64,000 nt of DNA from NCBI GenBank assembly GCA_028554795.2, contig CM068827.1:71831809-71895808 (forward strand), in the 5' to 3' direction. The notes under the pieces were generated by a model, which saw only the letters and a list, made by a program, of their open reading frames with translations, made no database searches and was not told where the DNA came from. This document shows, in pieces, positions 41,063-64,000 of the stretch; within the stretch, counting starts at the first letter, position 1; each line of letters opens with the position of its first letter. The DNA comes from Sinohyriopsis cumingii (Eukaryota; Mollusca; Bivalvia; Unionida; Unionidae). A program made the position numbers and the translations under genes.

Positions 41063-46909
<5,847 letters not shown>

Positions 46910-47056
46910 AAATGTAATGCACAATCCAGTGTTTAGAAATATATGTAATGTACAATGCAGTATGCAGAAAATATATATAATGTACAATGCAGTATATAGA
47001 AATATATATAATGTACAATTCAGTATGTAGAAAATATATATAATATGCAATGCAGT
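46910..47056. repeat. 32-bp tandem repeat, about 4.5 copies
   Basis: A unit containing gtacaatgcagtat and agaaaatatatataat repeats just outside the putative left end of the Polinton. Confidence 0.85.
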
Positions 47057-47070
47057 ATGAGTAGTGAAGT

Positions 47071-47268
47071 GTGCCACCCTAAGGTCTATGGGAATTAGCA
47101 TTAAAAACACCCCTGGGCCACTCTAGGGTCTATGTAAATTTAACATGGACAAAACCTCTGGGCCACTCTAGGGTCTATCGGAATTAACATGGACAAAAAT
47201 CTTGGGCTGGTCTAGGGTCTATGTAAATTTAACATTAATCACCCTGGGCCTGTCTAGGGACTAGGGGA
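47071..47268. repeat. 45-bp direct repeats at the probable left boundary of the Polinton
   Basis: Four to five imperfect copies of gggccactctagggtctatg, continuing through taaatttaacatggac, lie head to tail; the outermost copy is the most diverged. The motif gggtctatgg recurs once more at about 47.33 kb, inside the palindrome. Polinton ends are long inverted repeats that often include such arrays, but the matching right end is beyond the window, so assignment to the element is inferred. Confidence 0.7.
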
Positions 47269-47278
47269 AATGGAACAG

Positions 47279-47326
47279 GGTCGGGACCCTATTTTAATAT
47301 TTTAATATTTTAATAGGGTCCCGACC
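47279..47326. repeat. 48-bp palindrome with 15-bp perfect arms
   Basis: GGTCGGGACCCTATT pairs exactly with AATAGGGTCCCGACC around an A+T-rich centre (repeats of attttaat). It stands between the 45-bp repeats and the first element gene. It could be a terminal or subterminal hairpin of the Polinton, or a small independent insertion. Confidence 0.85.
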
Positions 47327-47426
47327 TGATGGGTCTATGGAAATGGAACATACGAAAATTGAAACAGGGAGGGGTCTCTATTTTTTTTTTTAAAAAAAAT
47401 AAAAAAATGGGGTAGGCAATTGAAAG

Positions 47427-47468
47427 TCTATCTCTTTTCGAGAAATGTGGGTGGCCCTGAAAAGGGCC
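47427..47468 (-). terminator. Histone-type mRNA 3' end signal (stem-loop plus purine-rich element)
   Basis: On the minus strand GGCCCT TTTC AGGGCC (47453-47468) is preceded by CCCAAA and followed by ACCCACA. This is an essentially perfect metazoan replication-dependent histone stem-loop. A purine-rich stretch, CGAAAAGAGATAGA (47427-47440), begins 12 nt past the stem, where the U7-binding histone downstream element normally lies. It sits 27 nt after the stop codon of the small gene at 47496. Confidence 0.85.
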
Positions 47469-47495
47469 TTTGGGTTTCTTCTTCTTCTTCTTCTT

Positions 47496-48076
47496 CTAAC
47501 TCCTCCACTTCTTCCACCAAGTTCTCACTTTTTCCATTATTCCTTTCTTCTTCCTCTTTTCAGTTTCTGTTATCCAGTCAGGATGACCCATCGCTCTGAA
47601 TTTCTGTTGGATCTTCATCCAGTTGTTATTCAATCTTTCAAACTCTAATTTCTTCTTCTTATTCTCTTCTTCCTTTCTCTTTTTGCTCCATTTTTCTTTT
47701 ATCTTCATCACCTCTACTTTCATTACCTCTCTAATTAGTTCTTCTGCTTTTATCAACTGGTTAAAACCCCACTTTACGTACCACCAGTCAGTCCAATAAA
47801 AGCTACTTTCTAGGAAGCTCCTGACTTCTATGACATGATCCAAGGCTTAATTTAAAGTACCTACTCTCACGTAAGGTGGGTCAATGAATCCTCTGATTCT
47901 TTCTACTTCTTCCTCAATCATTCCCCCATTAGATCTTTTGCTACTCCAAGACTCTTCGCATTGTTCAGGCTACCTTCAAATCTTCCTTCCTTATTCAATC
48001 TTTCTACTACATAAGTCCCATCCATGATCCAAAAATAGCTATGTCTCAAATCGTTAAATAATTTTGTCACCTCCAT
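47496..48076 (-). pseudogene. Left-end small coiled-coil gene 1, broken
   Basis: The main open part (47496-47843) is a very charged, Lys/Glu-rich protein predicted to form a coiled coil (EKWSKKRKEEENKKKK), with many Trp residues near both ends (FYWTDWWYVKWGF and TWWKKWRS). Upstream in the same frame is a 24-codon open stretch ending in TAA at 47847-47849. Before it, a first ORF begins at the ATG at 48076 and ends in TGA at 47918-47920, overlapping the next ATG by four bases. Promoter element and TATA-like box lie just upstream of 48076, so I infer one original gene of roughly 190 codons with one frameshift and one nonsense change. Small overlapping ORFs are an alternative. A histone-type stem-loop follows 27 nt after the stop. 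Function unknown; it resembles its two neighbours in size, position and signals. Confidence 0.6.
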
Positions 48077-48124
48077 CTTCTTTGTTTATTCCTTAGAATG
48101 GTGCGAACGACGAACACTGTGGGT

Positions 48125-48230
48125 TCTTATAGTTAAAGCGCGGACGTGAAGGAAAACATCCCCCTAAAACAAAATTGATATTACCTAGATTATCACTTAA
48201 AACGCGCGGACGTGAAGGAAAACGTCCCCT
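48125..48230 (-). promoter_or_regulatory. Shared promoter element, two copies, with TATA-like box
   Basis: Copies at 48135-48170 and 48203-48230 of the plus-strand text gcgcggacgtgaaggaaaac (read on the minus strand as gttttccttcacgtccgcgc). The nearer copy is followed on the minus strand by ttaactataag, a TATA-like box at about 48126-48131, some 50 bases before the first ATG. The same element precedes the two other left-end genes. The palindromic acgt core resembles CREB/ATF or bHLH sites, but no factor can be assigned. Confidence 0.65.
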
Positions 48231-48501
48231 ACTTTTCTCATCTCATATTATCTACTATCCACATACGTGAAGCAGCAATAAACAAACCCCCAAATCTACT
48301 ATTCACACGCAAAGCATTAAAATTAAACCCAAATCTACTATCCACACTAACCAACTTAAGTTCTTACAAAACCCAATAATCTACTATCCACACAAACGTA
48401 CGTGAGCGCTTACAAACACACAAACACAAGAAAAAAGAGTCAGTGTTTATATTCACACTACTCTACATACACACATTGGCAAATCGATTACTATTTCATT
48501 T

Positions 48502-48870
48502 CTAGAGTATTGGGTAGCCCTGAAAAGGGCTGTTTGTTTTTTGAACTCCAGTGACACCTGGTAAATGATGGCACCTTCCAGGCCTGGCACCACACACACA
48601 TCTTCTTCCCCAGTCTCCTTTTACTTTTTTTCTTGGGAGTGCAGAGGCGGGATGATTGGCTTCAGCACCCCAATCCTCTGTCTCTGGTATCTTGTAAGTC
48701 ATCCTCTCTCCTATTTTCTTTTCCTCCTCTTCCCTCTGTCTTCTCTCCTCCTCTTCTTTCTTTATCCTTGCCTCTTCTACTATGGTCTCTGCAGCCAGCT
48801 CATTCACTATACGCCTGGCATATTCCAGGTGTACATGAAGTTCAAGCAGTTTTGCTAGTCTGGTGTTCAT
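48502..48870 (-). CDS. Left-end small coiled-coil gene 2
   Basis: Starts at the ATG giving MNTRLAKLLELHVHL, 122 codons; a slightly longer frame uses no ATG. The N-terminal 25 residues align with gene 3 (MCSKLAKLNEAYVNL), so the two are paralogues. A highly charged Glu/Arg helix follows (KKEEEERRQREEEEKK), then a tail with a CVCGARPGRC cysteine pair. The frame runs through the histone-type stem-loop and stops at TAG 48502-48504, whereas genes 1 and 3 stop before theirs. The original stop may have been lost, or a late frameshift has changed the C-terminus. Promoter element and TATAAAT box lie upstream. Function unknown; no enzymatic motif is seen. Confidence 0.6.
   Translation of the reverse strand: MNTRLAKLLELHVHLEYARRIVNELAAETIVEEARIKKEEEERRQREEEEKKIGERMTYKIPETEDWGAEANHPASALPRKKVKGDWGRRCVCGARPGRCHHLPGVTGVQKTNSPFQGYPIL
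48516..48531 (-). terminator. Histone-type stem-loop of left-end gene 2
   Basis: Minus strand AGCCCT TTTC AGGGCT: 6-bp stem and 4-nt TTTC loop, preceded by AAAC and followed by ACCCAATACTC, then a purine-rich tagaaatgaaatag. Only the first base pair differs from the histone consensus (A-T instead of G-C). Confidence 0.8.
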
Positions 48871-48917
48871 TCTCTTGATCAATCAACAAGGGTAGCTAGA
48901 CTGCCGAGCGATTTTCA

Positions 48918-48983
48918 ATTTATACTAAAAGCGCGGACGTGAAGGAAAACATCCCCCTAAAACAAAACTGATTTTACCTAGAT
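48918..48983 (-). promoter_or_regulatory. Promoter of left-end gene 2
   Basis: The shared element (plus-strand gcgcggacgtgaaggaaaac) is followed on the minus strand by TATAAAT at 48918-48924 and, about 25-30 bases later, by cagtctagc. That sequence is matched by cagtctaac at the same place before gene 3 and is a likely initiator. The similarity to the gene 1 upstream region extends over about 56 bases (to ttacctagat), showing that promoters were duplicated along with genes. Confidence 0.65.
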
Positions 48984-49324
48984 CATGACCAAACAACTTG
49001 CGGACTTAAAAGAGACACTCACTGACTTTTTTATACTACCCATCACTATTCTAAAAAAATTTCATTTAACCAATAATATACTATCCACATACGCAAAGCA
49101 GTCAAATCAAACCCCAAATCTACTCTCTAGGCACGTCAAACAGCAAAAAAAAAAAAACATGATCATAATCTACTATTCACACAAACGTACTTTAGCGCTT
49201 ACAATCACACACACACATAAACATATACAATCACACCACAAAAGAGTGAGTGTTTATATTCACACTACTCTACATACACACACATTGGCAAATCGATTGT
49301 TATTTCTTTTCTAGAGTATTAGGT
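48984..49324. repeat. Spacer duplicated between left-end genes
   Basis: About 100 bases before the stem-loop of gene 3 (catacacacacattggcaaatcgatt onward) closely match those before the stem-loop of gene 2 at about 48.43-48.53 kb, including the purine-rich element. The actatccac and cacaaacgtac texts are also shared. The plus-strand frame across it is not considered coding. Confidence 0.7.
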
Positions 49325-49340
49325 AGCCCTCAAAAGGGCT
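49325..49340 (-). terminator. Histone-type stem-loop of left-end gene 3
   Basis: Minus strand AGCCCT TTTG AGGGCT, preceded by a long A-run and AAAC, and followed by ACCTAATACTCTAGAAAAGAAATAA. Stem length and loop size match the histone signal; the last loop base is G rather than C or A. It lies 36 nt after the stop of gene 3. Confidence 0.75.
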
Positions 49341-49376
49341 GTTTTTTTTTTTTTTTTTTTTTGCTATGGCAATCTT

Positions 49377-49745
49377 TTAGTTTCTAAGAATGCGACGTCC
49401 TCTGACGATAGACTTTCTGACGATAGGTCTGCTTCTTCGGAAAGAGAAGAAGAACTCTTTGGTGTCGATACGACAATAGACAAAGCCTCTGTCAGGTTCA
49501 AGTTGCTGATGCTGTTGTTGTTGTTGTTGCTGTTGCTGCTCTCTCTGCTGTTTCTGAAGTCTGTACTTCTCTGTCCATTCTTCTTTCTCCCTATTCACTT
49601 CTTCTCTGAAGAGCATTTCTATCAGGTCTTCAGTGACTTTTAACATTCTCACATTCTCTGTCTCTTCTGGCTTCGGTATCAGACTGTGTCTGACCCTATG
49701 CAAATTCACGTAGGCTTCGTTTAGCTTAGCTAGTTTGGAGCACAT
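49377..49745 (-). CDS. Left-end small coiled-coil gene 3 with polyglutamine
   Basis: The start is taken at the ATG of MCSKLAKLNEAYVNL, because that is where similarity to gene 2 begins; an upstream in-frame ATG at 49766 would add MTHPPTK. 122 residues: an N-terminal helix shared with gene 2, a long charged helix (EEVNREKEEWTEKYRLQKQ), a run of nine or more Gln near residue 80, and an Arg-rich C-terminus (RRSRPIVRKSIVRGRR) that could bind nucleic acid. The stop (TAA) is followed by an A-rich run and the stem-loop. Promoter element upstream. Function unknown; most likely an early or regulatory accessory gene, by inference from position and signals. Confidence 0.65.
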   Translation of the reverse strand: MCSKLAKLNEAYVNLHRVRHSLIPKPEETENVRMLKVTEDLIEMLFREEVNREKEEWTEKYRLQKQQREQQQQQQQQQHQQLEPDRGFVYCRIDTKEFFFSFRRSRPIVRKSIVRGRRILRN

Positions 49746-49798
49746 CTTCGTAGGAGGATGAGTCAATAATGGATGGTTAGACTGGAGGCTACCCCGGC

Positions 49799-49838
49799 TT
49801 TAAAGTTAAAGCGCGGACGTGAAGGAAAACATCCCTCC
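49799..49838 (-). promoter_or_regulatory. Promoter of left-end gene 3
   Basis: Fourth copy of the shared element (plus-strand gcgcggacgtgaaggaaaac at 49810-49829), followed on the minus strand by a TTTAAAG box and then cagtctaac, the presumed initiator. The element stands at the same distance from the ATG as in gene 2. Confidence 0.6.
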
Positions 49839-50064
49839 ACGGATTTCGAGCCGGAACGTTCAATGAGTGTCATGAGAGGGATAGTAAGAAGTCAAAGAGC
49901 ATGAATCCAAATTCTTATAGCCAAACAAAACACAAAGTAATTTTTTTTCAAAACAACATTTTTTTATTCAAAATCACTTAACACTAACAAACAACTATAA
50001 CAGTTTTAACAATATAACATCAAACATTTTTTTTAAATAGCAAACATTTTTTCCAACTCACACA
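49839..50064. other. Spacer between left-end module and structural genes
   Basis: A+T-rich with several T-runs; no ORF or repeat recognised. It probably contains the 3' end signals of the protease transcript. Confidence 0.4.
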
Positions 50065-50625
50065 TTATTTTGGACAAGGCTGACAACGTGGTGAATGAAA
50101 TTGTGATTTCCACTGTTGGAAGTCATTAGGCCATTGATGGACACTACGTTTCCTAGCTTGAGACAAAAGATAAGCATAATGGTCACAAAACCATTGATCT
50201 ACTTTCACATCGTTTCTAGAAGAAGAACGAGGATCAAAATGAGTCACTAAATGTTCTAAGGAATAACCCAGGCTGCGATGATGCAGAAAATACACACAAT
50301 ATTGTCCACACACCAAGGAATCTGTGCCTGGTAATTTCACATTATTGAATCGGGTGGTATGAGCATTTCTTCTCATAAAGTCAATGATATCGTCTTCCAA
50401 AGGAGGCAATCCATACGAATCGAAATATTCCACACATCATTCTTGAGGAAAGTAGACGGCTACCCAGTGGGTTCCTGGGAGATGACTGTCGTCCGTGTTG
50501 ATCACATAAGCTAGATGGTCTTGAGGTTTACGATGAGGGAGTTCATCTTTAGCACAGACGACAGGATTCCAAGAAGCCGTGTACGAGCTGTGGTTCAAAA
50601 GGTAATAAAGTTCCCAGGTATCCAT
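50065..50625 (-). pseudogene. Adenain-like cysteine protease, split by an in-frame TGA
   Basis: Polinton virion-maturation protease of the adenovirus protease type. The start is the ATG of MDTWELYYLL. The catalytic His is seen in GTHWVAVYF, the acidic residue in VEYFDSYG, and the nucleophile in VCGQYCVYFLHH, in the correct order and spacing; the family cleaves capsid precursors at Gly-containing sites. A TGA at 50437-50439 interrupts the frame between the His and Asp segments, with no shift in frame on either side, so the full gene would be about 186 codons. The gene starts just inside the end of the upstream zinc-motif gene, as expected for a structural-gene block. All triad residues remain, so this lesion looks recent compared with those in the polymerase. 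Confidence 0.85.
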
Positions 50626-50651
50626 GTTTTGTGTGGTTTTTTTCTTCTTCT

Positions 50652-51158
50652 TCACAGGTAATGATAAGTGATCAATTCGATCCTGACTTTTTGCTTGAAA
50701 ATGTCTGACAAGTAAAAGGCGTTTAGATCCGACTTCTTACTCTGGTCAAAGAGGGATTCGATGCGACGGCACTCCAGAGACGTTAATGGAGGAGAAGAAT
50801 GTTTATCCAAACCTTTACACCACTCGTTCAACACCAATTCTATTTCGATGTGATCCCAAGCTTTGTCCAGATATCCGTCCAATTTTTCTTTTTGACTTAA
50901 CATCAGACATTTGTCGTGTTGAATTTGACTGGGATGATCGTTGTGACATCCATAGCACTCTTCCTTGATCAATTCTTTCATTATATCTGCCAGGACTGTA
51001 GCAAAACAGGAAACTAAATGTGATTCTTGTTCTGGCCATCTTGACTTCATCATGATGACTTCTTCGTCTTGGGATTCTTCTTCTTCTTCTTCCACGGTCT
51101 CCTCACATTCCATCTTCAAAGTTTCTCCACTAGGTAAAGAGGGATAACAGTCTTCCAT
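50652..51158 (-). CDS. Polinton zinc-motif protein of unknown function
   Basis: 168 residues from the ATG at 51158. An acidic N-terminus (EEEEEESQDEE) is followed by a helix and a cysteine/histidine block, CYGCHNDHPSQIQHDKCLM, at about residues 68-86. This block looks like a small zinc site (C-x2-C, H, H and C) and recurs in proteins at this position in other Polinton-like elements, from memory. The remainder is helical with no enzyme motif. The gene starts only a few bases after the capsid gene's stop and ends next to the protease start, so it is probably expressed with the late genes. It may be a virion or assembly protein; this is inference only. Reading frame intact. Confidence 0.65.
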   Translation of the reverse strand: MEDCYPSLPSGETLKMECEETVEEEEEESQDEEVIMMKSRWPEQESHLVSCFATVLADIMKELIKEECYGCHNDHPSQIQHDKCLMLSQKEKLDGYLDKAWDHIEIELVLNEWCKGLDKHSSPPLTSLECRRIESLFDQSKKSDLNAFYLSDIFKQKVRIELITYHYL

Positions 51159-51163
51159 GGCTT

Positions 51164-52476
51164 CTAATAATCTAGAATGACTTCTCTCAAACTGTTGATT
51201 TCTATGGTATTGTCAAATTCTGCATACAGAAGGACGTTCACTGTGTGATCTGGAGGTGGATTTGCAAACTGAAGTTCCACACGAATCTGACCCGATTTTA
51301 TAGGGTGGAAATGTCCCTCGTCGCTGCCTTGGTCTGGAGTGAAATCAAAACCCCACAAAGCATAGCCTCCTGCATAATCGTCGTACGAAATACCGTGACT
51401 GGTGTTGGTTCCTAACTGTCCCGTGGCTTCGTACAGGGACAAGTATGATCTCAAATAATTCTTCGCGACACCAAAGTTAGGCTCAAAGGGTCGGGTACAC
51501 AAGGTCTTGCCGTCGCTTCTGACTTCGATCTTGGACACATTGTAATGTTGAAACTCAAAAGGATTCCGTTGAAGGCTGAATTCCTGACGATACCAACGAT
51601 CAAACGCTTGGGTAACTGTCCTTGGAACAGATGATCTTCGATCATAGATCGCTGTCCAGCGGGAATGGTGAACGTTTTCACTTCTACGCGTCGTATCGGA
51701 TACTTGGCGGTCGTTCTGCTCAACGTCTGACTGACGTCGTTTCCCACTTTAGGTAACACTTCCACACGACGCACGTAAAGTCGGGCTTCTTGAGTGATAG
51801 TTTTGCATTCATTGGCATGGGCCATCAAATGGAAAGCGGTACTGCTACGATTCAGTCTCAGACGGATATCCACCCCGTTCAGCCAATACTTTTCTTGTAA
51901 CCACATGTCCAAATGCAAACGATCCATCAGTTCTAAACTTCGCCCTTGCAGAATTTTCTTACGACGGTCGTTAAACCCCACATTGTGAGGATTGTCATCT
52001 TCTGTCAGGACTGTGTCGCTAAACGTGCCTACACCTGCCGTGTCAGGTTTCCATACCACGCAAGCATCCAGATGAGTGTTCTTGGCTTCTTTTCCTTACG
52101 TCAAGAGATTTTCCAGGTAGACACGATATGGGTAAGTATCCATGCTGCTGCTGACCAGTTTGTTATTCAAGTACAAGTCCACTTCGCTGAGCAAGGAATG
52201 CATGAAATTGTTGACAGGAGCTACTCTAGCATCGCCTCCTGGATCGGTGTTGTCCGTTTTGATCACTTTCACTTTCAAATACAGGTAACTGCTATTCAGA
52301 TCGATGTAATCTTCGGGCTGTCCTTTGATTTCAAACTCGATGGGAGCGGAATCCGTCAAAGAGGAGACGGGATGAAACTCCACCCACTGGGATTCTTGCA
52401 TCGTCATCATCGTGGGGGGCATGGCAAACAAATCCAGTTCCGACTTGGAACAAGCGCAAGACTCTCGGTGCATCAT
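51164..52476 (-). pseudogene. Major capsid protein (hexon-like, double jelly-roll), two lesions
   Basis: Matches the family known in invertebrate genome annotation as F54H12.2-like, which corresponds to the Polinton/adintovirus major capsid protein. The N-terminal part begins MMHRESCACSKSELDLFAMPPT and includes QWVEFHPVSSLTD and a PVNNFMHSLLSEVDLYLN segment. The middle part includes a MDRLHLDMWLQEKYWLNG block, and the last part FEPNFGVAKNYLRSYLSLYEATG and YAGGYALWGFDFTPD. A TAA at 52096-52098 stops the frame in place, and a single-base type frameshift near 51560-51575 divides the middle and last parts. Overall length, about 437 codons, is normal for the family. The stop TAG lies 5 bases before the next gene. 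Confidence 0.8.
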
Positions 52477-52489
52477 TTTTCTCTGTGTG

Positions 52490-52915
52490 TCAATAATCGA
52501 AAACGTCTAAGTCTCGGACTGTTCTTCTTTTCTTTGCCTTTCTAGCTTTAGAAGTGTGAAGTCTGGTGAAAGGGTGTTTTCTTCGTCGTCTCTTTCTGCC
52601 TTGTCCTTGCTGAATGCCTGACTCGGTAGCGTGCAGGGCATTTATAGGTGTTTCTTGTCGACCCAAAAGGTCTTTGCCCGTTTGCAGCAAGACATTTTTG
52701 CCTGCCCTCATGAAGGCTTCTTTAGGGTTTTGTTCATCGATGATGACATTTTGGAGAAATTCTTTGCCTTGCGTCAGTGCGGCATCTTTCAAGGCGTGCA
52801 ATCCGCGTGTCACCATCGGTTTCAACACCGGGGCCACCGAACGAAAGGCCGATTTCAGCATATCTCCTAAACCGTGTCCTCGCTGTCGAGCAACCCCTCG
52901 GTACACTGGATACAT
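52490..52915 (-). CDS. pVI/pX-like basic virion protein
   Basis: 141 residues, intact. It starts MYPVYRGVARQRGHGLG, a pattern common to small virion proteins of adintoviruses and Polintons. GHGLG resembles a site for the adenain-like protease, and the following stretch (MLKSAFRSVAPVLKPMV) can form an amphipathic helix, like the membrane-active part of adenovirus protein VI. The C-terminal third is strongly basic (GRKRRRRKHPF and KARKAKKRR), suited to DNA binding or nuclear import. It sits directly between penton and major capsid genes, three bases after the penton stop. The proposed role, a core or lytic virion protein processed by the protease, follows from the family and not from direct evidence here. 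Confidence 0.7.
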   Translation of the reverse strand: MYPVYRGVARQRGHGLGDMLKSAFRSVAPVLKPMVTRGLHALKDAALTQGKEFLQNVIIDEQNPKEAFMRAGKNVLLQTGKDLLGRQETPINALHATESGIQQGQGRKRRRRKHPFTRLHTSKARKAKKRRTVRDLDVFDY

Positions 52916-52918
52916 GAC

Positions 52919-53845
52919 TTACGAGTCGTGAGAGAACCGTTTTCGAAAATGAACGGTGACTTTTCCTTTGGTGAATGGAATATTTTGTTCCAGATCTCCT
53001 TTTATAGCAATATTGACCGTGTCCAAATATGACTTGCTGACAGGCAAATAATGAGGATGTACAAATTCGCGGTGAACGTGGTAAGTGTTTCCACCTTCCT
53101 CGTCAGCGTTCGTGGCAGAATCCACTTTGAAAGGAATGACACGCAGTAACGGCACAGAGGTGTGTCCCACCACGTTATACTCCACCACATCGGAGTACAC
53201 AAAGATCAAATTCAGTCCTTGGTTCAGTTCTACCGGGGCACGAAATAACTTGCTAAAAGACTCGTTGTCGTAAATGATTGGTAATTCGTTTTTCTTGAGC
53301 ATGGCCATTCTCATGTCCATGTCTCCGCAAAACATGTCAAACAATTCAGGACAAAATAAAATGGACACGATTTTACTCCCGTCAAATTTCATCAAGAAGC
53401 GACGAGCTGATTTGTGGTATTCCATGGTGACACTTTTTTTCACACTTTCCAAAGCTTTCAGAAACACGACATTAAACAAGGAGGCTATGGTGCTCACCAA
53501 ATGTTGACCACTAAAATAATAGCCTGGGGGAATGAACAAGTGATAGGTGGTGTACTTTTGATTTTGTGTGCCAGGGGGTTTTATGTTATATTTGCCATGG
53601 GTATCCAAGTACTGTTGCATTTGCTCGTCATGAACTTCCACATCAAAAAAGTTTTGATTGGGAAGGACATTGAGGACTTGGGTCGGGTGAATGATTTCTA
53701 CTAAAGCCACTTCCCAATGGGCTTCGTGATCTAATGGGATGGTCTGAGGTAATTTGGCCGTGTAACAGCACAACGTGTTCTTGGGAAACACCTCCATGGA
53801 ACTGTCACTGGGTAAGGTTAAGTAAAATTGGTTTTGGTGACTCAT
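52919..53845 (-). CDS. Minor capsid (penton-like, single jelly-roll) protein
   Basis: 308 residues with no lesion, the longest intact gene of the element. It begins MSHQNQFYLTLPSDSSMEVFP and has the family's features: an early beta-rich block (TLCCYTAKLP, HWEVALVEIIHP), a middle block with FIPPGYYFSGQHLV, and the C-terminal DTVNIAIKGDLEQNIPFTKGK followed by a basic end. In Polintons this protein is expected at the fivefold vertices of the capsid. The ATG overlaps the stop of the upstream two-helix gene by four bases (ATGA), and the stop is three bases before the next ATG, showing a tightly packed late block. Assignment as penton rather than another capsid accessory is from family knowledge. 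Confidence 0.75.
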   Translation of the reverse strand: MSHQNQFYLTLPSDSSMEVFPKNTLCCYTAKLPQTIPLDHEAHWEVALVEIIHPTQVLNVLPNQNFFDVEVHDEQMQQYLDTHGKYNIKPPGTQNQKYTTYHLFIPPGYYFSGQHLVSTIASLFNVVFLKALESVKKSVTMEYHKSARRFLMKFDGSKIVSILFCPELFDMFCGDMDMRMAMLKKNELPIIYDNESFSKLFRAPVELNQGLNLIFVYSDVVEYNVVGHTSVPLLRVIPFKVDSATNADEEGGNTYHVHREFVHPHYLPVSKSYLDTVNIAIKGDLEQNIPFTKGKVTVHFRKRFSHDS

Positions 53846-54252
53846 AATTCCAGAGTTCTGTGGCTGTCCGAGGGGTTACTGGACGTCAGAGGAGTGTCTC
53901 CGCCCAAAATAGGGTTGTTGTTGTTATCGGAATGGTGACTGACACTGGCAGTAGACACAAGGTTCCCGTTGTTCCCGTTCGAGGATAATTTCAGGGAGGG
54001 ATTGGGAAGCAGGTAACCGATGCAACTGCTCAATAAAATGGTCCACAATTGTTTGTCTCCTTGTTGCAAACTTAAATTAGCTATGGCTGCCCCGATGACA
54101 CAATACACCACGAAGATTTGACAGAAAAAAACGATTTGCGTTTTAGGCACACGTTCTCCACACCACACCCACAAAGGTTGTTTTTGTAAATCTTGCAGAG
54201 AAGAACTAGGTGAAGAAGTGGTCGACGTAGCTGCGTCTGTGTGAAAGGGCAT
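53842..54252 (-). CDS. Two-helix membrane protein of Polinton type
   Basis: 136 residues from the ATG of MPFHTDAATS; a longer frame reaches 54261 without an ATG. A Ser/Thr-rich N-terminus is followed by a hydrophobic helix at about residues 39-60 (IVFFCQIFVVYCVIGAAIANL) and a second at about 70-83 ending in the family signature GYLLPNPSLK. A polar Asn/Ser-rich C-terminus follows. Small membrane proteins ending this hydrophobic part with LPNPSLK recur beside capsid genes in Polinton-like elements, from memory; their function is unknown, perhaps an internal virion membrane or exit role. Frame intact. The gene overlaps the penton start by four bases and begins five bases after the integrase stop. 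Confidence 0.7.
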   Translation of the reverse strand: MPFHTDAATSTTSSPSSSLQDLQKQPLWVWCGERVPKTQIVFFCQIFVVYCVIGAAIANLSLQQGDKQLWTILLSSCIGYLLPNPSLKLSSNGNNGNLVSTASVSHHSDNNNNPILGGDTPLTSSNPSDSHRTLEL

Positions 54253-54257
54253 GATGG

Positions 54258-55336
54258 TCACTTCTTTTTATAGTCGATGACTTGCGAAGCGTCGATCCAA
54301 GAATCAAAACTGGGTGGATATCCTTTCCAACGTACTTTGACTTCTTTGACACGTCGTTTGCCCACTTTACGGTTTCTGCGTTCGAGAATGCTTTCGATGA
54401 CGTACACGTCGTCTTCTTTTTTGGTGACACGTTGTAACTCGGGTAAGTAAAACGTTCCTTTGAGCACTTCTCCGTTCATGTCCTCCAATTTATAGACGGC
54501 AGGATGACGGCCATGCACTCGTCCAGTGACACGAAACAATTCGGTTGTCCAGTTAGGTAAGTAACCTTTGTCGAAAGTGCGTTTGGTTTTGCCAATGGGT
54601 ACCCAATCTCCTACGGTCAACACTCCACTTTTCTTGGGGGCAGCCCTCGTCGGGGACGTACCAAACAGGCGCTCAAACACCAACACTTCGTTTTCGGGAG
54701 TCACTTCTTGCGGGGCACGTCCGATGCTTCGATGGTAAGATTGGTTGTACGCTTGCACCAGGTGCGGTAAGATGTCGATGTACTTCAGAGTGTGGTGATG
54801 CGTAAAATATTTCCCCATGCGTTCTTTCAAAGTGCGTTGAAAACGTTCCACGATGCTGGCTTTGGTGTCTGGATTCTCGGTGGTAAAAAAATGTATGTCA
54901 CGTTTCTTTAGTTCTTTTTGGAACGCTTGGCTCGAAGAGGGTGACGACCCCTTTGTTTCAACACTCGTTGCAGGGCTCGCACTAACTCGCTGCTCGATTT
55001 GGAAGTCAAGGGTACGACCCAGGCAAATTTGGAAAAGACGCTGATGACACAAAACAAATGTTTGTAGCCACGATTGTAGCTGGCCAAATGAGAGACATCG
55101 GCTAAATCGGCTTGCCATTGATGATGGATGCCTTCCACTCGGGTGCGACTTCTGGAAAACTTGCGTCGAATGGGCTTATGTAAAGTGTAGGTAGCTTGTT
55201 CTTGTAACCATCGTTGCACTTGAGGTAAACGGAGACTTTTCAGTCGCGTTTTGTCAGCACGATACAATTTTTGAACTCCTGCGTAACCTGCAGGATGGGA
55301 GGGATAGTAGTAAATGCTGGCTAACACTTTTTCCAT
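54258..55336 (-). pseudogene. Retroviral-type integrase with chromodomain, internal deletion and frameshift
   Basis: The start is the ATG of MEKVLASIYYYP. The N-terminal part has the YPSHPAGYAGVQKLYR helix and the linker ATYTLHKPIRRKF, both usual in Polinton integrases. The catalytic core starts with the first Asp in WQADLADVSHL. The stretch that should follow LKQRGRHP and hold the second catalytic Asp is missing. At that point (about 54908-54950) the frame shifts, and the core resumes at AFQKELKKRDIHFF. The catalytic Glu is in ASIVERFQRTLKERM. The C-terminal chromodomain is visible as VYVIESILERR and VKVRWKGYPPSFDSWI. Without the second Asp the enzyme cannot join DNA, so the copy is immobile. 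The gene starts within the last bases of the upstream coiled gene. Confidence 0.85.
54266..54274 (-). promoter_or_regulatory. TATA box of the late block (membrane protein, penton)
   Basis: Minus strand ctataaaaa lies within the last codons of the integrase, about 14-22 bases before the ATG of the two-helix gene. This is close for a TATA box, so the transcript may start beyond the first ATG and mainly serve the genes downstream. Confidence 0.4.
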
Positions 55337-55350
55337 TTTTTCTTTCTGTG

Positions 55351-55968
55351 TTAATAAGGCACCCACTCTTGGAAGATGCTACTCTTTTTCTCTTGGGGTA
55401 CTTTCTTGGATTGCAATGCTTTGCGTGTGCGACCAGCAATAGGTGTCGCAGAGGAGGATGTCTGAACAGGGGATATCGGTTCTTGTTTCACTTTTGTCTT
55501 CACTTCTGTCTTCACTTTCTTTTTCTCTTCTGATGAAGAAGGAGTGCTCATCATCTTTTTAATCCATCCATTTCTGGAGGTAGGTGGTGTTGTTAACTTG
55601 CGTACTTTTTCTGGTGGAGTTTCAAACCCTTCTTCTTCTTCTTCTCCTTTTTCTGTCTTGGTCACTGGTAGTGGTGATGGTGCTGAACTTTTCATCAAGG
55701 TCTTAAAATCTTTCAGAGTGGGAAGAGTTGTTTCGTCTGAGGCTTTCTGGTGAAAGAGTTGCAGTCGTTGAAAGAGTTGACCGTACTTTTGCGATTTTTC
55801 TGTTTCGGACAAATCTTGGCGATTCATTAAGGACTGCAATTCGTGTTGTAACTGGGACATCTCGCTCAAATTGGGATTGGGAGGTAAATGCGGGGTGCGT
55901 TGTTCTTGCCAACGATGGTATTCCATCCATCGTTCGTAAGGCACTAAAGCTAGTTTTCGTCCTTCCAT
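55351..55968 (-). CDS. Conserved Polinton protein with charged tail
   Basis: 205 residues, intact, starting MEGRKLALVPYERWMEYHRW. The LVPYERW pattern near the start, followed by a helix with Leu-rich spacing (SETEKSQKYGQLFQRLQLF), recurs in a Polinton gene family usually found close to the integrase; this is from memory. The second half is low-complexity and basic, with a possible nuclear targeting segment (EEKKKVKTEVKTKVKQEP), and it ends IFQEWVPY. A TATA-like gataaaaa lies about 50 bases upstream, inside the end of the previous gene. No enzyme motif is seen. A DNA-binding or virion core role is possible but unproven. Confidence 0.6.
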   Translation of the reverse strand: MEGRKLALVPYERWMEYHRWQEQRTPHLPPNPNLSEMSQLQHELQSLMNRQDLSETEKSQKYGQLFQRLQLFHQKASDETTLPTLKDFKTLMKSSAPSPLPVTKTEKGEEEEEGFETPPEKVRKLTTPPTSRNGWIKKMMSTPSSSEEKKKVKTEVKTKVKQEPISPVQTSSSATPIAGRTRKALQSKKVPQEKKSSIFQEWVPY

Positions 55969-56014
55969 GGGGTTGTCAGGGGTCGATTCTGAGATCTTGG
56001 GACTTCAGAGGGCC

Positions 56015-56022
56015 TTTTTATC
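56015..56022 (-). promoter_or_regulatory. TATA-like box before the LVPYERW gene
   Basis: Minus strand gataaaaa, overlapping the stop of the upstream gene and about 48 bases before the ATG at 55968. Confidence 0.4.
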
Positions 56023-56422
56023 TTGCTCCCACCAGTCCTCCCAACATGGTTCCCAAGACTCCTTTCAGTAATGGGCCTAACAAGAGGGGTAAAATTCCTC
56101 CACGATGGACCAACATCTTCTTTTTTTGACGAATGGGGATTTTATTTTGAACGATTTGGCGAAGAACGTGACGATGTTTGCCTAAGCATTGTTTCTGGTG
56201 TTTGGACAAAGGGATCGTGCCTTTCAACACGTTCAAACAACATTCGCAAACGGTATCGATGACCTCTTTGGAGGCTGATTGAATGAGTTTTTTTCGTAGG
56301 GGTGGAGAAGCTTTGGACAGGACAGATAACATGTCCCCATGTTTGACTAAACGAGGAGGTAGTCCTTTCCTTTTCTTTCTTTGGGGTTGTTTAGAAGAGG
56401 GATGTTTTCTGGAGGGTGACAT
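56018..56422 (-). CDS. Recurrent Polinton small protein (CECC family), copy A
   Basis: 134 residues from the ATG of MSPSRKHPSS; the first five codons of the longer frame have no ATG. Layout: basic N-terminus; a helical region with DMLSVLSKASPPLRKKLIQ; the family core EVIDTVCECCLNVLKGTIPL; a second basic helical part with HRHVLRQIVQNKIP; and the C-terminal KKMLVHRGGILPLLLGPLL, ending in a Gly/Leu-rich hydrophobic tail. This core is one of the most widely repeated sequences in invertebrate Polinton-like elements (from memory), yet its function is not known. The hydrophobic tail suggests membrane or capsid-interior interaction. A paralogue lies immediately upstream and a fossil copy lies in the host part at 20.4 kb. 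TATA box tataaaaaa upstream. Confidence 0.7.
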   Translation of the reverse strand: MSPSRKHPSSKQPQRKKRKGLPPRLVKHGDMLSVLSKASPPLRKKLIQSASKEVIDTVCECCLNVLKGTIPLSKHQKQCLGKHRHVLRQIVQNKIPIRQKKKMLVHRGGILPLLLGPLLKGVLGTMLGGLVGAR

Positions 56423-56466
56423 CTTCAGGAGCACCAAAACACTGATACCCTACTTGGTCACACACC

Positions 56467-56475
56467 TTTTTTATA
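56467..56475 (-). promoter_or_regulatory. TATA box of CECC-family copy A
   Basis: Minus strand tataaaaaa, about 45-53 bases before the ATG at 56422. Confidence 0.5.
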
Positions 56476-57431
56476 CTGGAACGCGTCGCCACTGATTGTC
56501 TTTACGTCGTATCAACTTCAGGACAGGCATGACACGTCGTGCAGGGGTACGTAACGAACTAAATCGTGCCAGTTCTTGCTTGGACAAATCCAGTAAACTT
56601 TGTAACATGCCCGATCTTTCTTGAACTTTGATTTTGGGAGCAGGTACTTTGTGAGCAGCAGCCACTACCACTAAATTGGAGGGTTCTGCCACTGGGGAAG
56701 TTCTTGGGGTCATCAGCGGAGAAGTTCTTGGTGTGATCAACGTCTCCAAGTACTCTTCAGTTCTTGGTGACATCAACGGGGAAGTGGATGAACTTGAGGC
56801 TGCCGGAGACGCGGTCACCGTCGTTGCAGGTCGTGGTTTGCGAGTGTAAGGTTGCGTCCTGGCCGAAGTGCCTCTCTTGCGACTAGTTTTCTTCTGTGGA
56901 CTTTTCTTTTTCTGGGGACTTTTTCTCTGTTTCTTTTTCCTGGGGGCTTCTTTTCTTTTTCCGGGGTGGTGACTGGTAAGAGGAGGGTCCCGCCACTGGA
57001 GAAGTTCTTGGAGACACGGGTCTCCTTGGGGACCTGGTCTTTTTCTTCTTCTTGGAACTTCGTTTGACATTTTTCTTGGGGAGAACTTTGGGGGCATTAG
57101 GATCCCATCTTAAGAGAGAGCGAATGATGACCCCTCCTAGAGTACCGCTCCCTCCAGGTTTTAAAATGATTTGTTTTTTGGTTTGAGTGTCGATGCGAGG
57201 ATCGGCCAGTTGGGTCAAAGCGACTTTGTTTCGATCAAAAAAGCGTTTGGTTTGATGAGGAATCTGAATGATCCCTTGTAGTAACTGACATGCAGTCACC
57301 GTGAACCATCGTAAGACTTCTTTGAGACTAGCTTCTAAGACACGAGCCCGTATTTGTGGATTTTTTTCTCGACTGATGCCATACAAGGCACGAATCAATT
57401 TGACGGTAAGATGCGACTGAAGGGACGTCAT
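56471..57431 (-). pseudogene. CECC-family copy B with long Ser-Pro/Lys tail, one frameshift
   Basis: Start at the ATG of MTSLQSHLTVKLIR. The first 110 residues follow copy A segment by segment: RARVLEASLKEVLRWF, CQLLQGIIQIPHQTK, KVALTQLADPRID, KKQIILKPGGSGTLGG. The cysteines and the hydrophobic end are less conserved. Instead of ending there, copy B continues into a basic, low-complexity tail with SPRTSPVAGPS and KKKRSPQ. Around 56940-57000 the frame changes, and a second frame carries on to 56471 with more SPRTSP-type repeats (TPRTSPVAEPS, TSPLMSPRT) and a basic end, WRRVPV. The repeats on both sides of the frame change support one original gene of about 320 codons. The tail resembles protamine-like or core DNA-binding proteins in composition only. 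TATA box upstream. Confidence 0.6.
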
Positions 57432-57470
57432 GTTCAAACTGTGTGAGACAGACGAAAAGTGTCTGAGGTT

Positions 57471-57477
57471 TTTATAG
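57471..57477 (-). promoter_or_regulatory. TATA box of CECC-family copy B
   Basis: Minus strand ctataaa, followed by aacctcag, about 40 bases before the ATG at 57431. Confidence 0.5.
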
Positions 57478-57496
57478 ATTTTTTTGTGGAGTGAAG

Positions 57497-58225
57497 TTAA
57501 GTCGAGGACGGAGACGTGTACAGGACAGGCCCTCCGTCTTGGCACCAGTGGTGAAACAAGTGGGTACGAAATCGCAAATCCTCGGGGGTCGTAGGTTTCA
57601 AATCGACGAGTAAATAGGCGTGTGGAGTTTGAGTGGCATCGTCGTACGCCTGAGTCAGCCAAGGCGTTCCTAACTGTTTGGCTAAGACTTGCACTTGCAA
57701 TTTATCTCGAGGGCTTTTAAACAAGACCACGTAATGCGCATTGAGACTGATGGTGCGATGGGCTTTACTTTATTGAAACAAATTTTGAGTGATGTAAACG
57801 ACACTGGCATTACGGTGATGCCCTTTGTGCGTGAACCAAAGTTTAATTTCTTCTTCGTCTTCTCCTAACATGTCGTCGAAAATGACCAAATGGGTTAGAC
57901 GGGAGTCAGAGACGATGCCGTCATCTTCTTTAGGAATGCCTTCCACAAACACGATGGAATCGCCTTGACTTTCTCGCAAGAGGCTGTACGCCGATTGCCA
58001 CTCTTTGTAACACCACACGATGCGTTGAGGTGGACGATCGATCAAATGATGTTTATCTTCGATCAAACGTTTGACGAAATCGTTTTTGACTGAACCGCTA
58101 GGTCCAGCAATGAGCATGTTAAAGGGATGGCGAAGATACAAAGCCTGCCAACTGGCACGATCTAAGTGTTCGTCGATGACTTTGACAGTGGAGGAAGAGG
58201 GAGCAGAGACAGCAGAGGTAGCCAT
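57497..58225 (-). pseudogene. A32/FtsK-like genome-packaging ATPase, in-frame TAA and altered Walker A
   Basis: About 242 codons from the ATG of MATSAVSAPS. The P-loop region HPFNMLIAGPSGSVKND at residues 34-49 is recognisably that of the Polinton packaging ATPase. However, the Gly before the catalytic Lys reads Val and the Ser/Thr after it reads Asn, so nucleotide binding should be impaired. Walker B (LVIFDD) is intact near residue 115. A TAA at 57770-57772 follows VVYITQNLFQ; the C-terminal part continues in the same frame with the family signature HRTISLNAHYVVLFKSPRDK. The protein would pump DNA into the capsid. TATA box upstream. Two independent kinds of damage indicate that the gene has been without selection for some time. 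Confidence 0.85.
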
Positions 58226-58271
58226 AGTGTTAGGAATGTCACTTGTGACACGAAAACAGACAAGACAAGAG

Positions 58272-58279
58272 TTTATATA
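58272..58279 (-). promoter_or_regulatory. TATA box of the ATPase gene
   Basis: Minus strand tatataaa, preceded by ctgaaaaag, about 47 bases before the ATG at 58225. It lies just past the stop of the upstream membrane protein gene. Confidence 0.55.
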
Positions 58280-58307
58280 CTTTTTCAGAACACGTTTATT
58301 GAATGTT

Positions 58308-58610
58308 TTAAACGTGAACACGAAAGACAAAAATACATAAAAGCCAAAGGCTTAAGTACAACGATAAAAGGCACATGAAAACCATCAACGTGGAATAAAG
58401 ACAAGTGTCTGTACAACATGTTTTGGGTAATGTTCTGACCAGTTCTATAGGGGGTAAGGTCACACAAGTGTCCTCCGGAAAGGGTCTTTCAGGCATGTCC
58501 ACGACAGTCCTGTCCTGGGTGACGGGTTCTTCTGGTACGGTCACTAACACAGGTTGAAAAGTAACTTTTTTCTTTGGACGTTGAAAGGAAGGATCACAAC
58601 TCTCGAGCAT
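58308..58610 (-). CDS. Single-helix membrane protein
   Basis: 100 residues from the ATG of MLESCDPSFQ. A basic KKKVTF motif at residues 13-18 and a Pro/Val/Thr-rich ectodomain-like or cytoplasmic part are followed by a C-terminal hydrophobic helix at about residues 71-96 (LMVFMCLLSLYLSLWLLCIF). Small one-helix proteins with a KKVTF-type motif are common in Polintons and adintoviruses (from memory); function unknown. The start overlaps the end of the upstream gene by 17 bases, suggesting both are read from one transcript. Confidence 0.55.
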   Translation of the reverse strand: MLESCDPSFQRPKKKVTFQPVLVTVPEEPVTQDRTVVDMPERPFPEDTCVTLPPIELVRTLPKTCCTDTCLYSTLMVFMCLLSLYLSLWLLCIFVFRVHV

Positions 58611-58839
58611 ACTGGGCCACTTCTTGGGTCCAAGCCTCAAAATCCCATTCTTTCCAGGCACGGACATCTGTCCAATGGGGGTGTAAGTCACAAGCTACAC
58701 ACACATCGTCATACACGTCTTGGGTAGCTAAAAGTTGACGAATCTTTTTTTCCCGTAGAGGTCGAGAAGTATCCAGATGAAAACGCAAGGCTTTGAGCAA
58801 AATGAGTCTCTCGTGAACATTTAAAGGCACCACTTTCAT
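58594..58839 (-). CDS. Small protein of unknown function
   Basis: 81 residues, MKVVPLNVHERLILLKAL at the start. A predicted helical N-terminal half and a C-terminal half with two cysteines and many aromatic residues (CVACDLHPHWTDVRAWKEW). The ATG overlaps the upstream stop by four bases (ATGA). I do not recognise a family. The chosen start removes a longer frame that would duplicate the sequence of the overlapping neighbour. Confidence 0.5.
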   Translation of the reverse strand: MKVVPLNVHERLILLKALRFHLDTSRPLREKKIRQLLATQDVYDDVCVACDLHPHWTDVRAWKEWDFEAWTQEVAQYAREL

Positions 58840-59758: not shown

Positions 59759-59779
59759 GAATAGGTCAGTCCGTACAAT

Positions 59780-60172: not shown

Positions 60173-60183
60173 GGTAAGTTACT

Positions 60184-60819: not shown

Positions 60820-60851
60820 CTTGTTCGCTTGGTCTTGGTAGTCACAATGAA

Positions 60852-63800
60852 CTATCGATCTTGCCTAGGGTTCCTTTTTATATACAGACCAATACCGACG
60901 TGTCCATACGGTAAGGTGAAATGATTGGGAAGCCGCACTCGTTTCTGGTACACGATTTGATAGACTTTTTCCAAGGGTCGACTGACGATGTGGTGAGTGG
61001 GTAAACGTACAATCTTGCTGGGCTGATAGGTGGTCACTTTAAAGTGTTCATCTTCTCTAGACTTCAAGGCTTCTTTCAATACCCCAAAGTTCACCACTCG
61101 ACTGGTACGATAATTCAGAGTCAATCCTTTCACTTTGTACTGCGTGTGCACTTCTTGTTTGTCCCGGTATTCGTAACCGTAATTTTTAGGACCACCACTG
61201 GCGAAACTTAGAATCTTGTCGTCGTTGTCCAGGCTCCTAAACGGTCTCCTTCGATGTCAGGGTGCTGTTGACTAGGGAATTGGATGTAAATACAACTGTC
61301 CGTGTCAAAGTACAGGACACGTTCCCCTAACAGTTCTAAAGCTTCGTACAATTTTAAGCGAGCATGAGCTGTCACGTAAGCCGCAATGATGACATTTCCA
61401 AAGGGGTCGTCTTGTACAAAGTCCAGATCTTCTTCGTAATTGACCAAGATCAAATTCTCGCGAACGACGTCCACGTGTTTCATGAATTTGGTTTTGTCGT
61501 GAATCATCTGGAAATAGCGGGAAAGGATCGGTCAAATATTCCGTCTTGGGTAAACACGGTCGTTGTGCCATTTTTCCCCACAAGCAATTTAACATCACTT
61601 TAGCAAACGATCGCCTGCCTTCGTTTTTTTTCGATGTGATCTAAAGTGATGCCTTCTTGTGCCCAGTATTTCTCCTTGAATGTCTTTTGGTCTTCGGGAG
61701 TGTGACACCAGGAAGGATAGCCACTGGCTTCTTGCTTCAGTTTCAAAAAGGCATCCACGTAGTCTGCGAAAATGCCTTTCTGCGTGGGGTCACCCTTGTG
61801 GTATTGTTGTGTCTTGGGAAAGTGACAAATTTCGTACACTTCTAACAGTTGGTATCCCATGTCCAAAGCTTTGAACAATTCTACGCTGACACACGTCCCC
61901 GTCAAGGCCCGTTCTTCCTGTGTGTGATGACAAGGTTGATCTTGGTTGCACGTTTCCGCACAAGTACGGCACAAAGGAAACATCAGTTTGCCTTGGCAAT
62001 GGTGAGGTAGCACGGGATGTTAAAATTCCGTGGGAGGCAAGACTTTGCACTTGATCAGACCTTCGTATTGTCGAATGTTTTTCAGGTCGATGTGTTCCGT
62101 GAACAATTGTGGGTGCCCTGCAGGAAAGCGACAATATTTGCACACGTAGGGATAGAGCGAACACACGTAAAAGTATTTCATTTCTTCTCCTTTCTCTTCG
62201 TCTGCTTGGTACAGCAAACAGGTACCATTGGTCCTTCCTCCGTACAAACTATCCCTCGGGTTCAGCGGGTCCATGAACTGGTAACTTTCCACGAGGCGTT
62301 TAAACTCGGGATCGGTTTTCAAACGGTGATTGTATTCGTGTTCCCACATTTCCACCACTTGGTATCCTTCCTGTTCTAACTTTAGGCGTCGCTGACAAGT
62401 GGCCTGGTACAAGTCTTCCATGGTTTGTTGTAAAAACTGATTTTTAGTGCCGCGATCAGGGTAACAGACGGGGCATCCGTGACATAAGCAACCGTTAAAC
62501 TCGTACACGATCTTGGAGTTTTCTGAGTCCCAGCCATCGACCGAATGCGTTCCGATGGTCTTCTCGCCCCCTCCGTTGCGGGCATGCTGAATCCATTCTC
62601 TTCCTTGTCGCACAAGTAATGTAACCAGCGTAGAGCTTTGACCGAGTATTGACGTTTGACATAGTTGGTCGTCTGAGGACTGATGACAGCTACGGTGTTT
62701 TCAGGCATGAATCGTTGTCGGTACACTAAGGAACACGCTTTGGCAATGGTGCAAGCTTCTTTCAAAGGATCGACCCCTCCGTGTTCCATGAACAGTTCTC
62801 GAAATTTTCCACAGCATCGCCGTAAAATGTCCACGTCGGAACGACAATACTTTAACATTTCTTCCTGAAAATCGAAAGGGTCCGAGGAGTGAGCCTGGTA
62901 CCAAGCGTAGAAAGCTTCTCGTTGTTCGATACGCATGTTTTCGGGGTCGTAATAGTGAGCCTCAGGCAAATGGGGTTGAACGGCTTGTTGGTTGACTTCC
63001 GTATTGAAAAAGTGAGGAAAGTACCCTTTAGCCATTTCTGTCATTCCAAACGTTTTAGGCGTTCGACTTAAAGGCATGGCCAAGTAACTCATCGAATCTT
63101 TAAACTTCACTTGTCCCACTTGCATGAAAATGATTTTGGCTCTGTTCAAAGTGACTTTAGGACGTTCGGTGCCTTGTTCCGTATAGTACCTCAAAAGAAA
63201 CTGTCCATCGTATCCGGAGAAATTGTGAGCCATCACTGTGACATGGCGATGACAATCTCCGTAACGTTCGATGTCCTCTTGGCTCGACTTCTTGTCGATG
63301 GGGTCTAAGACCCATCGGGCGAAATCGGCTAGCGTGTTCGGCCCTCGAAAGATTTTTTCACGTCCTCCAGGAATCTTACTGCAGTGAGGGCAATAACTCA
63401 AGATAGGTTCTTGAATGCACTTTTCGCACGCTCGATGAGCCACGCAGAAATTAGGAATGTGAACGCCGGTCTCTTGCATGCATTCGAAATCGAAAAAGAT
63501 GAAATTGCCTTTCTTCTTGTGACCATCCTCTTTCTCTGGTTGGAATTGGTATTTTTGCACGTAGCATTGATGTTCCAAGTCTACGATGTGGTGACAAATG
63601 TGACATTTTTTCTTTCCTGGACATACGTGTGCCTTGGCATTATTGGTACGTATGCCTTGGCCACAGGTAGGGCACAATTTCAGGAGTTAACAAGCACATT
63701 TCTTCTGTGAACCTTGCGCCTTCAAATGTTGTTGGTATCAGGCAGGGCTGACAAACGTGCGCTGACAAGTTGAACAATGCACTGGTTCTTGTCCTTCGCT

Positions 63801-64000
63801 CAGACAGGGTGGAGAGGCCAAACATCCTGAGCATTTCGAGCCACAATGCTTGTGTTGCTCTCGATTGTTATAGCTATAGTCACATTTCTCACAGTAATAT
63901 CTGTATCCCAGGAATCCGGTGATGGTGGTAATGGTATCGAAGTGGTCATCGTGATGATAGACATGAATGTATTTTCCATCCTTAAAGTCTTTCCCTCGAG
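60852..64000 (-). pseudogene. Protein-primed family B DNA polymerase, multiple lesions, 5' part outside window
   Basis: N-terminal zinc-finger-like region: YYCEKCDYSYNN, then CGSKCSGCL, CSTCQRTF and CPTCGQGI. Exonuclease motifs follow: FFDFECMQE, MAHNFSGYDGQFLLRY and YCRSDVDIL. Polymerase part: GGRTNGTCLLY, motif A as YVCSLYPYV, motif B as AKVMLNCLWGKM, motif C as YFDTDSC, and a C-terminal SGGPKNYGY block. Lesions: in-frame TGA at 63738-63740, in-frame TAA at 63687-63689 and 62020-62022, and frameshifts near 62605-62620, 61620-61635, 61515-61525 and 61225-61240. In motif A the position normally held by the metal-binding Asp (62167-62169) reads Tyr. Motif C still has both Asp residues. Family: the Polinton polymerase that starts from a terminal protein. 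Damage to polymerase and integrase together makes autonomous replication impossible. The gene continues beyond 64000. Confidence 0.92.
60875..60884 (-). promoter_or_regulatory. TATA box of the BIR gene
   Basis: Minus strand tatataaaaa at the end of the polymerase gene, about 56 bases before the ATG at 60819. Confidence 0.55.

Follow-up and report, generated by a model that had tools for sequence, protein, structure and literature searches.

Histone-type 3' end signals behind non-histone genes of a Polinton-like element in the bivalve Sinohyriopsis cumingii

The type of 3' end considered here is described in PMC7614891 for the replication-dependent histone messenger RNAs (mRNAs) of Metazoa, together with the pathway of SLBP and the U7 small nuclear ribonucleoprotein (snRNP). 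Three signals of this kind were located behind non-histone genes of a Polinton-like element in a 64,000-nucleotide (nt) stretch of the genome of the bivalve Sinohyriopsis cumingii (assembly GCA_028554795.2, contig CM068827.1, positions 71,831,809 to 71,895,808 of the forward strand), which is called the window below and is numbered from its first base. To our knowledge, such a 3' end serves practically nothing but replication-dependent histone mRNAs; its signal is made up of the stem, the loop, the ACC flank and the purine element. The signals in the element correspond to the metazoan histone 3' end in having a 6-bp stem, a 4-nt loop, an A-rich 5' flank, the ACC(C)A sequence and a purine element about 14 nt past the stem, and the genes themselves resemble metazoan histone genes in the short distance from stop to stem, in compactness and in the presence of a divergent pair with CCAAT and TATA boxes. 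In contrast to the latter, they encode no histones and sit in a mobile element, for which we infer the use of SLBP and U7 snRNP.

For comparison with mobile elements, the definition of Polintons and adintoviruses given in PMC11071296 was used. The element has in common with Polintons/Mavericks and adintoviruses PolB, an integrase with a C-terminal chromodomain, an A32-type ATPase and terminal inverted repeats. Another animal DNA virus group with a histone connection is represented by the Xeno-class adomaviruses, which carry a histone-like Histoid gene according to PMC11071296; however, their histone likeness lies in a protein, while here it is confined to the 3' signal. In the open-access papers searched, histone-type 3' ends were not described for any gene of a Polinton or another mobile element, and the term stem-loop has 0 occurrences in the passages of PMC11071296 that were consulted.

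The three stems are located on the minus strand at the places indicated by a first-pass annotation, made from the letters alone (Table 1), which was borne out both by the sequence and by the covariance-model search suggested there: the latter found all three stems and also stems in related copies. Read directly from the sequence, stem 1 is GGCCCT-TTTC-AGGGCC followed by ACCC, stem 2 is AGCCCT-TTTC-AGGGCT followed by ACCC, and stem 3 is AGCCCT-TTTG-AGGGCT followed by ACCT. A purine-rich element begins 14 nt past each stem (GAAAAGAGATAG for stem 1, GAAATGAAATAG for stem 2 and GAAAAGAAATAA for stem 3), and the defining features, i.e., a 6-bp stem, a 4-nt loop, an ACC flank and a downstream purine element, are present at all three. 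In the scan of positions 44001-64000 against 4227 Rfam families, the histone stem-loop model RF00032 (gathering score 34 bits) matched stems 1, 2 and 3 with E values of 9.9e-10, 1.4e-5 and 2.7e-4, respectively, and had no further match at E <= 5 in the 44-64 kb range. Stem 1 alone reached the gathering score and was the sole Rfam match at this level in the whole 64 kb. The A-U first pair of stems 2 and 3 is the usual form at genes 2 and 3 in other copies. An sbrA match in Rfam was rejected, since it is one of these hairpins seen from the opposite strand, where the A-rich flank looks like a run of T.

The stems follow three short genes, numbered 1-3 from the left end of the element. The first-pass annotation had placed the stops of genes 1 and 3 27-36 nt before the stem and had regarded none of the three products as a histone; both statements held, the distance being 27 nt from the stop of gene 1 and 36 nt from that of gene 3, and Pfam giving no histone match for any of the three. 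The frame of gene 2 in the window reads through its own stem, while five related proteins stop 20 residues sooner, and the stem starts 33 nt past this common endpoint. In gene 1 of the window the tblastn matches fall in different frames. The searches with genes 1-3 against Pfam and PHROGs produced weak matches only; the structures predicted for genes 2 and 3 are composed of long helices without a histone fold (mean pLDDT, predicted local distance difference test, of 71, moderate confidence), and in a profile comparison the two were alike in the first 15 residues only (probability 4.7). The spacers 3' of the gene 2 and gene 3 stems (48376-48542 and 49165-49351) are near-copies of each other, and the open reading frames (ORFs) align only at a short start. 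On the promoter side, genes 1-3 have a common 20-mer with 4 exact copies in the window and 0 in 100 shuffles; allowing up to 3 mismatches, it precedes gene 1 in 7/7, gene 2 in 23/23 and gene 3 in 17/19 copies, and at genes 2 and 3 it sits 60-72 nt 5' of the ATG.

The search of the mussel's own genome with RF00032 (2.9 Gb, 1138 contigs) produced 589472 first-look candidates, out of which 75 scored places were reported. The window's own stems were outside these 75, and the list therefore represents the top slice only. Of the 75 places, 54 were examined with flanks of about 0.8 to 2.5 kb: H2A, H2B, H3 and H4 were absent from the flanks of all of them (tblastn, E <= 1e-3), and 53 carried genes of the Polinton-like element, the loci being spread over many contigs. 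Script sorting assigned 41 of the 54 to gene 1 or to two further genes, A and B. Among the 13 unassigned places, nine had gene 2 (mostly gene 3 too) and, at their end, a diverged ORF in the place of gene 1, three had A, B or gene 1 and failed the stem pattern, and the last, L066 (1.6 kb), showed only the end characteristic of the diverged gene-1-position ORF. All 54 examined places belong to or resemble the element; host histone stems were not seen among them, perhaps an effect of the top-slice list. In loci L003, L007, L008, L022, L024, L026, L027, L043 and L046 a different or strongly diverged ORF occupies the gene 1 position with the same type of 3' end, and these diverged ORFs look as if they had been swapped onto a fixed 3' end. 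An Rfam scan of ten loci (48055 bases) gave 26 RF00032 matches, 17 of them at or above gathering, including seven that were not stem-selected; the nine matches below gathering comprised eight of the gene 2/3 type and one changed gene B stem (L013). Stems of several genes were present together in L018, L015 and L041, with the gene-1 type and the A/B type lying within 3 kb in L018, which suggests that element ends are nested or adjacent there.

Genes A and B, of 182 and 77 aa, are divergently oriented, with a stem 3' of each. In nine loci (L012, L013, L032, L038, L039, L040, L041, L044 and L045) PolB starts on the strand of gene A, about 1.7-1.8 kb beyond the gene A stem, and A and B are therefore assigned to the opposite end of this type of element. 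There were two exceptions: in L029 PolB adjoins gene B and gene A is absent, and in the left-end locus L046 a piece of PolB lies about 2.2 kb beyond the end of the element. Neither gene is inside the window, whose end falls within PolB. The proposal of the first-pass annotation that non-histone Polinton genes carry the signal thus stands, but the phenomenon is wider than claimed, extending to the genes near PolB, A and B. Their shared promoter, about 220 nt long, contains CCAAT in 29/29 cases (two on average), TGACGTCA in 26/29, TTTATA in 29/29 and an A-side TATA in 26/29. Histone gene pairs commonly have divergent promoters with CCAAT and TATA boxes.

The position of the stems was counted on both strands of 66 loci (274384 bases, window region included). 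Out of 121 core stems, 109 shared the strand of a recognized ORF piece from five non-histone families (1, 2, 3, A and B) and lay no more than 160 nt 3' of it, and the remaining 12 came after the diverged ORF that takes the place of gene 1. With the first base past the ORF end as the starting point, stop codon included, the stem started at 18-32 nt for gene 1, 29-41 nt for gene 2, 31-44 nt for gene 3, 25-32 nt for A and 23-30 nt for B, the range of gene 2 omitting two values that came from alternative alignments (15 nt in L043 and 18 nt in L021). Gene A is directed inward, and genes 1 and B outward, indicating that the stem tracks the gene and not the element.

Among the hits reaching the C-terminus, a strict stem was present in 7/7 copies of gene 1, 15/17 of gene 2, 9/12 of gene 3, 26/30 of A and 16/17 of B; most of the loci had been chosen by RF00032, and the stem-selected copies made up 6/7 for gene 1 (all but the window copy), 9/30 for A and 8/17 for B. 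With gene 3 copies picked by protein alone (window included), the stem was found in 11/12, L055 having lost the region by deletion; three of these 12 copies, L059-L061, are near-identical and adjacent on one contig. Loss of the stems from other copies, which the first-pass annotation would have taken as speaking against it, was thus not the rule: other copies mostly keep them. The pairwise identity of the 16-nt stem-loop in unselected copies was 0.962 for gene 2 (n=26), 0.961 for gene 3 (n=23), 0.953 for A (n=21) and 0.986 for B (n=9), while the value of 1.0 for gene 1 comes from six copies, all stem-selected. Non-coding windows as conserved as the stem numbered 0/204 for gene 1, 12/188 for gene 2, 15/187 for gene 3, 53/199 for A and 0/191 for B. 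The conservation test is strong for B (where the terminal repeat helps), fair for gene 2, weak for gene 3 and A, and biased for gene 1.

The distribution of poly(A) signals was different behind stems and behind the neighbouring stemless gene. The window contains no AATAAA or ATTAAA from the gene 3 stem to gene 2; the first one past the gene 2 stem is at 48090, immediately before gene 1, and an ATTAAA is found at 47314-47298 past the gene 1 stem. In the copies, AATAAA was present within 200 nt downstream of 1/43 gene 2/3-type stems and 10/76 gene 1/A/B-type stems, with a shuffled expectation of 14.6%. In contrast, the stemless gene directly inward of gene 3 on the same strand has AATAAA 90-113 nt past its end in 12/16 copies.

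Taken as a reading of the sequence, the presence of the histone 3' code on non-histone genes of the Polinton-like element is well supported, and its end-located accessory genes have probably been placed under the replication-dependent histone 3' code of the host. In this case, host SLBP would bind the stem RNA, U7 snRNP would pair with the purine element and CPSF73 would cut just past ACCCA, so that the resulting mRNAs would have no poly(A) tail and would peak in S phase, the moment at which the element could exploit the replicating nucleus; the gene next to gene 3 retains an ordinary poly(A) signal. What the sequence itself shows is the anatomy of the signals, the rule of strand and position, the conservation and the contrast in poly(A) signals; SLBP/U7 processing, the tail-less state of the mRNAs, their timing and any gain for the element are inferred from these.

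Several results weigh against this interpretation. Stems 2 and 3 stay under the gathering score of RF00032 despite their low E values, and two gene 2/3-type stems in the ten scanned loci were unlisted by Rfam at E <= 0.01. The share of gene 1/A/B-type stems that do have AATAAA is close to the shuffled value. For genes 3 and A, the copies are not old enough to reveal selection on the stem, 15/187 and 53/199 non-coding windows, respectively, being as conserved. Furthermore, the five families are not independent, because 1 and B share the signal via the terminal repeat, and 2 and 3 share a spacer. Finally, host SLBP and U7 were not found in searches which gave no match in prokaryote control genomes either.

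The hairpin could also be bound by a different RNA-binding factor, from either the host or the element, and serve stability or translation without SLBP/U7 cleavage. The signal is known from sequence alone, and the A-U first pair seen at genes 2 and 3 is not the form usual in histone stems, so that such a role retains a small probability; however, ACC(C)A and the purine element are also kept at histone spacing. The identity of the purine element in unselected copies was 0.87-0.93 versus 0.68-0.86 at +6..+11 (0.891 versus 0.676 in the case of gene 2), and the mean identity among the five families was 93% for the stem, 92% for +1..+5 and 83% for the purine element, versus 57% for +6..+11 and 38% upstream.

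We consider it equally improbable that the hairpin belongs to the terminal repeat as a DNA element, such as an origin, an integrase site or a packaging site, with an incidental histone likeness. This explanation draws on the stems of genes 1 and B, which form the inner edge of the terminal inverted repeat: the left-end stretch (to 47477) recurs at the right ends of 27 loci, with the similarity starting at 47476-47480 and ending at 47055-47060 in 19/27, which puts the gene 1 stem at that edge. Genes 2, 3 and A, however, bear the stem inside the element, in gene direction and at a fixed short distance past the ORF end.

Still less probable is a relic, i.e., a histone 3' end captured once, copied around the element and by now without function, although the five families have a common ancestral-looking 3' module and some copies have broken stems. 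Against it stands the stem itself, which in genes 2 and B is far less changed than the silent sites. The silent/non-silent differences, counted in copies without an internal stop only, were 0.438/0.184 for gene 2 (19 copies), 0.422/0.092 for B (16), 0.108/0.023 for gene 3 (16) and 0.097/0.045 for A (18); the excess of silent differences indicates that genes 2, B, 3 and A are real genes, and the purifying selection on the ORFs indicates that the element lineages were active, which counts against a relic as well.

A location of the element in a host histone locus, or the acquisition of one by insertion, which the first-pass annotation had kept in mind and which the usual carriage of RF00032 by histone genes would favor, is very improbable in view of the many contigs involved and of the lack of any core histone gene in the flanks of the 54 places examined out of 75. 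Chance hairpins can be dismissed with the same firmness: a strict core pattern was hit twice in IMG/VR, on contigs whose ORFs are phage-like, but both hits are without an Rfam match at E <= 0.01, while in the window three matches are packed into <2 kb, in an arrangement that is seen again in the other copies.

Control by the host histone 3' code is therefore preferred here, and a broader version of it has a slightly better than even chance: the element may imitate whole histone gene units, with compact genes at both ends, a histone-style divergent A/B promoter and a complete SLBP/U7 3' code partly within the terminal repeats, and its non-histone genes would then be run tail-less by the S-phase mRNA pathway of the host.

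PolB, the integrase chromodomain and the A32-type ATPase point to a Polinton of the adintovirus type (Table 1). The window copy is damaged, as PolB, the integrase and gene 1 are spread over several frames. Terminal inverted repeats, a hallmark of Polintons, were recognized via the right-end loci, since the right end of the window copy lies beyond the window; its left end at about 47060 is reached by the alignment (47055-47060) in 31 of the 40 loci listed. Within the terminal repeat, tandem repeats with a 44-nt unit occupy 47073-47235, with like stretches following stems in other copies, and a 23-bp palindrome around TATTTTAA repeats at 47279-47326. The ORFs 52096-52476 and 52919-53845 are candidates for the double jelly-roll major capsid protein and the penton; neither had a Pfam match, and the penton-like family had no PDB match. 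The ORF 50065-50376 looks like a Polinton protease. Two adjacent ORFs open with an 88% identical stretch (59431-59528 and 59666-59763), i.e., a small duplicated gene family in the element. In IMG/VR and prokaryote genome contigs, the promoter 20-mer had no match, and gene 3, gene A and the penton-like protein had no confirmed relatives.

Table 1. Features of the Polinton-like element in the window (positions in the window; E values and scores as obtained with the named models)
Feature	Position	Strand	Remarks
Left terminal inverted repeat	about 47060..47477		plus strand starts AGTAGTGAAGTG
Histone-type 3' signal, gene 1	47428..47473	-	stem 47468-47453, purine element 47439-47428; RF00032 42.5 bits
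Gene 1, interrupted in the window copy	47496..48082	-	tblastn, gene 1 from L006 and L010 as queries: identity 62-63% over 47927-47523 and 38% over 48082-47924
Promoter-side 20-mer, gene 1, first of two	48138..48157	-	exact match
Promoter-side 20-mer, gene 1, second	48204..48223	-	exact match
Histone-type 3' signal, gene 2	48490..48536	-	stem 48531-48516, purine element 48502-48491; RF00032 31.4 bits, below gathering
Gene 2, to the endpoint of its relatives	48565..48870	-	five relatives (P0091-P0095) all end there; window frame continues to 48502
Promoter-side 20-mer, gene 2	48931..48950	-	exact match
Histone-type 3' signal, gene 3	49300..49345	-	stem 49340-49325, purine element 49311-49300; RF00032 28.0 bits, below gathering
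Gene 3, 122 aa, intact frame	49377..49745	-	nine relatives, 67-84% identity; 150 scored places in own genome
Promoter-side 20-mer, gene 3	49811..49830	-	exact match
AATAAA of ORF 50065-50376	49963..49968	-	contrast to the stems; present within 260 nt in 12/16 copies
ORF next inward of gene 3, without stem	50065..50376	-	no Pfam match
Penton-like protein	52919..53845	-	81 relatives, best 67% identity, none named penton
Integrase with C-terminal chromodomain, two frames here	54258..55336	-	Chromo 9.3e-8; rve 8.7e-6, below cut-off
A32-type packaging ATPase	57770..58225	-	Pox_A32 3.7e-5, 23.7 bits, cut-off 22.8
PolB, several pieces, continues beyond the window	61208..63998	-	DNA_pol_B_2 1.2e-16, 2.3e-8 and 0.0023 for three pieces; none for 61208-61507

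If correct, control of these genes by the histone 3' code would represent a natural transfer of this code to several unrelated non-histone genes and would explain how a virus-like element times its genes to the replication of the host. The transcripts would escape RNA-seq based on poly(A) selection, and an RF00032 match in a genome of this kind is not necessarily the sign of a histone gene.

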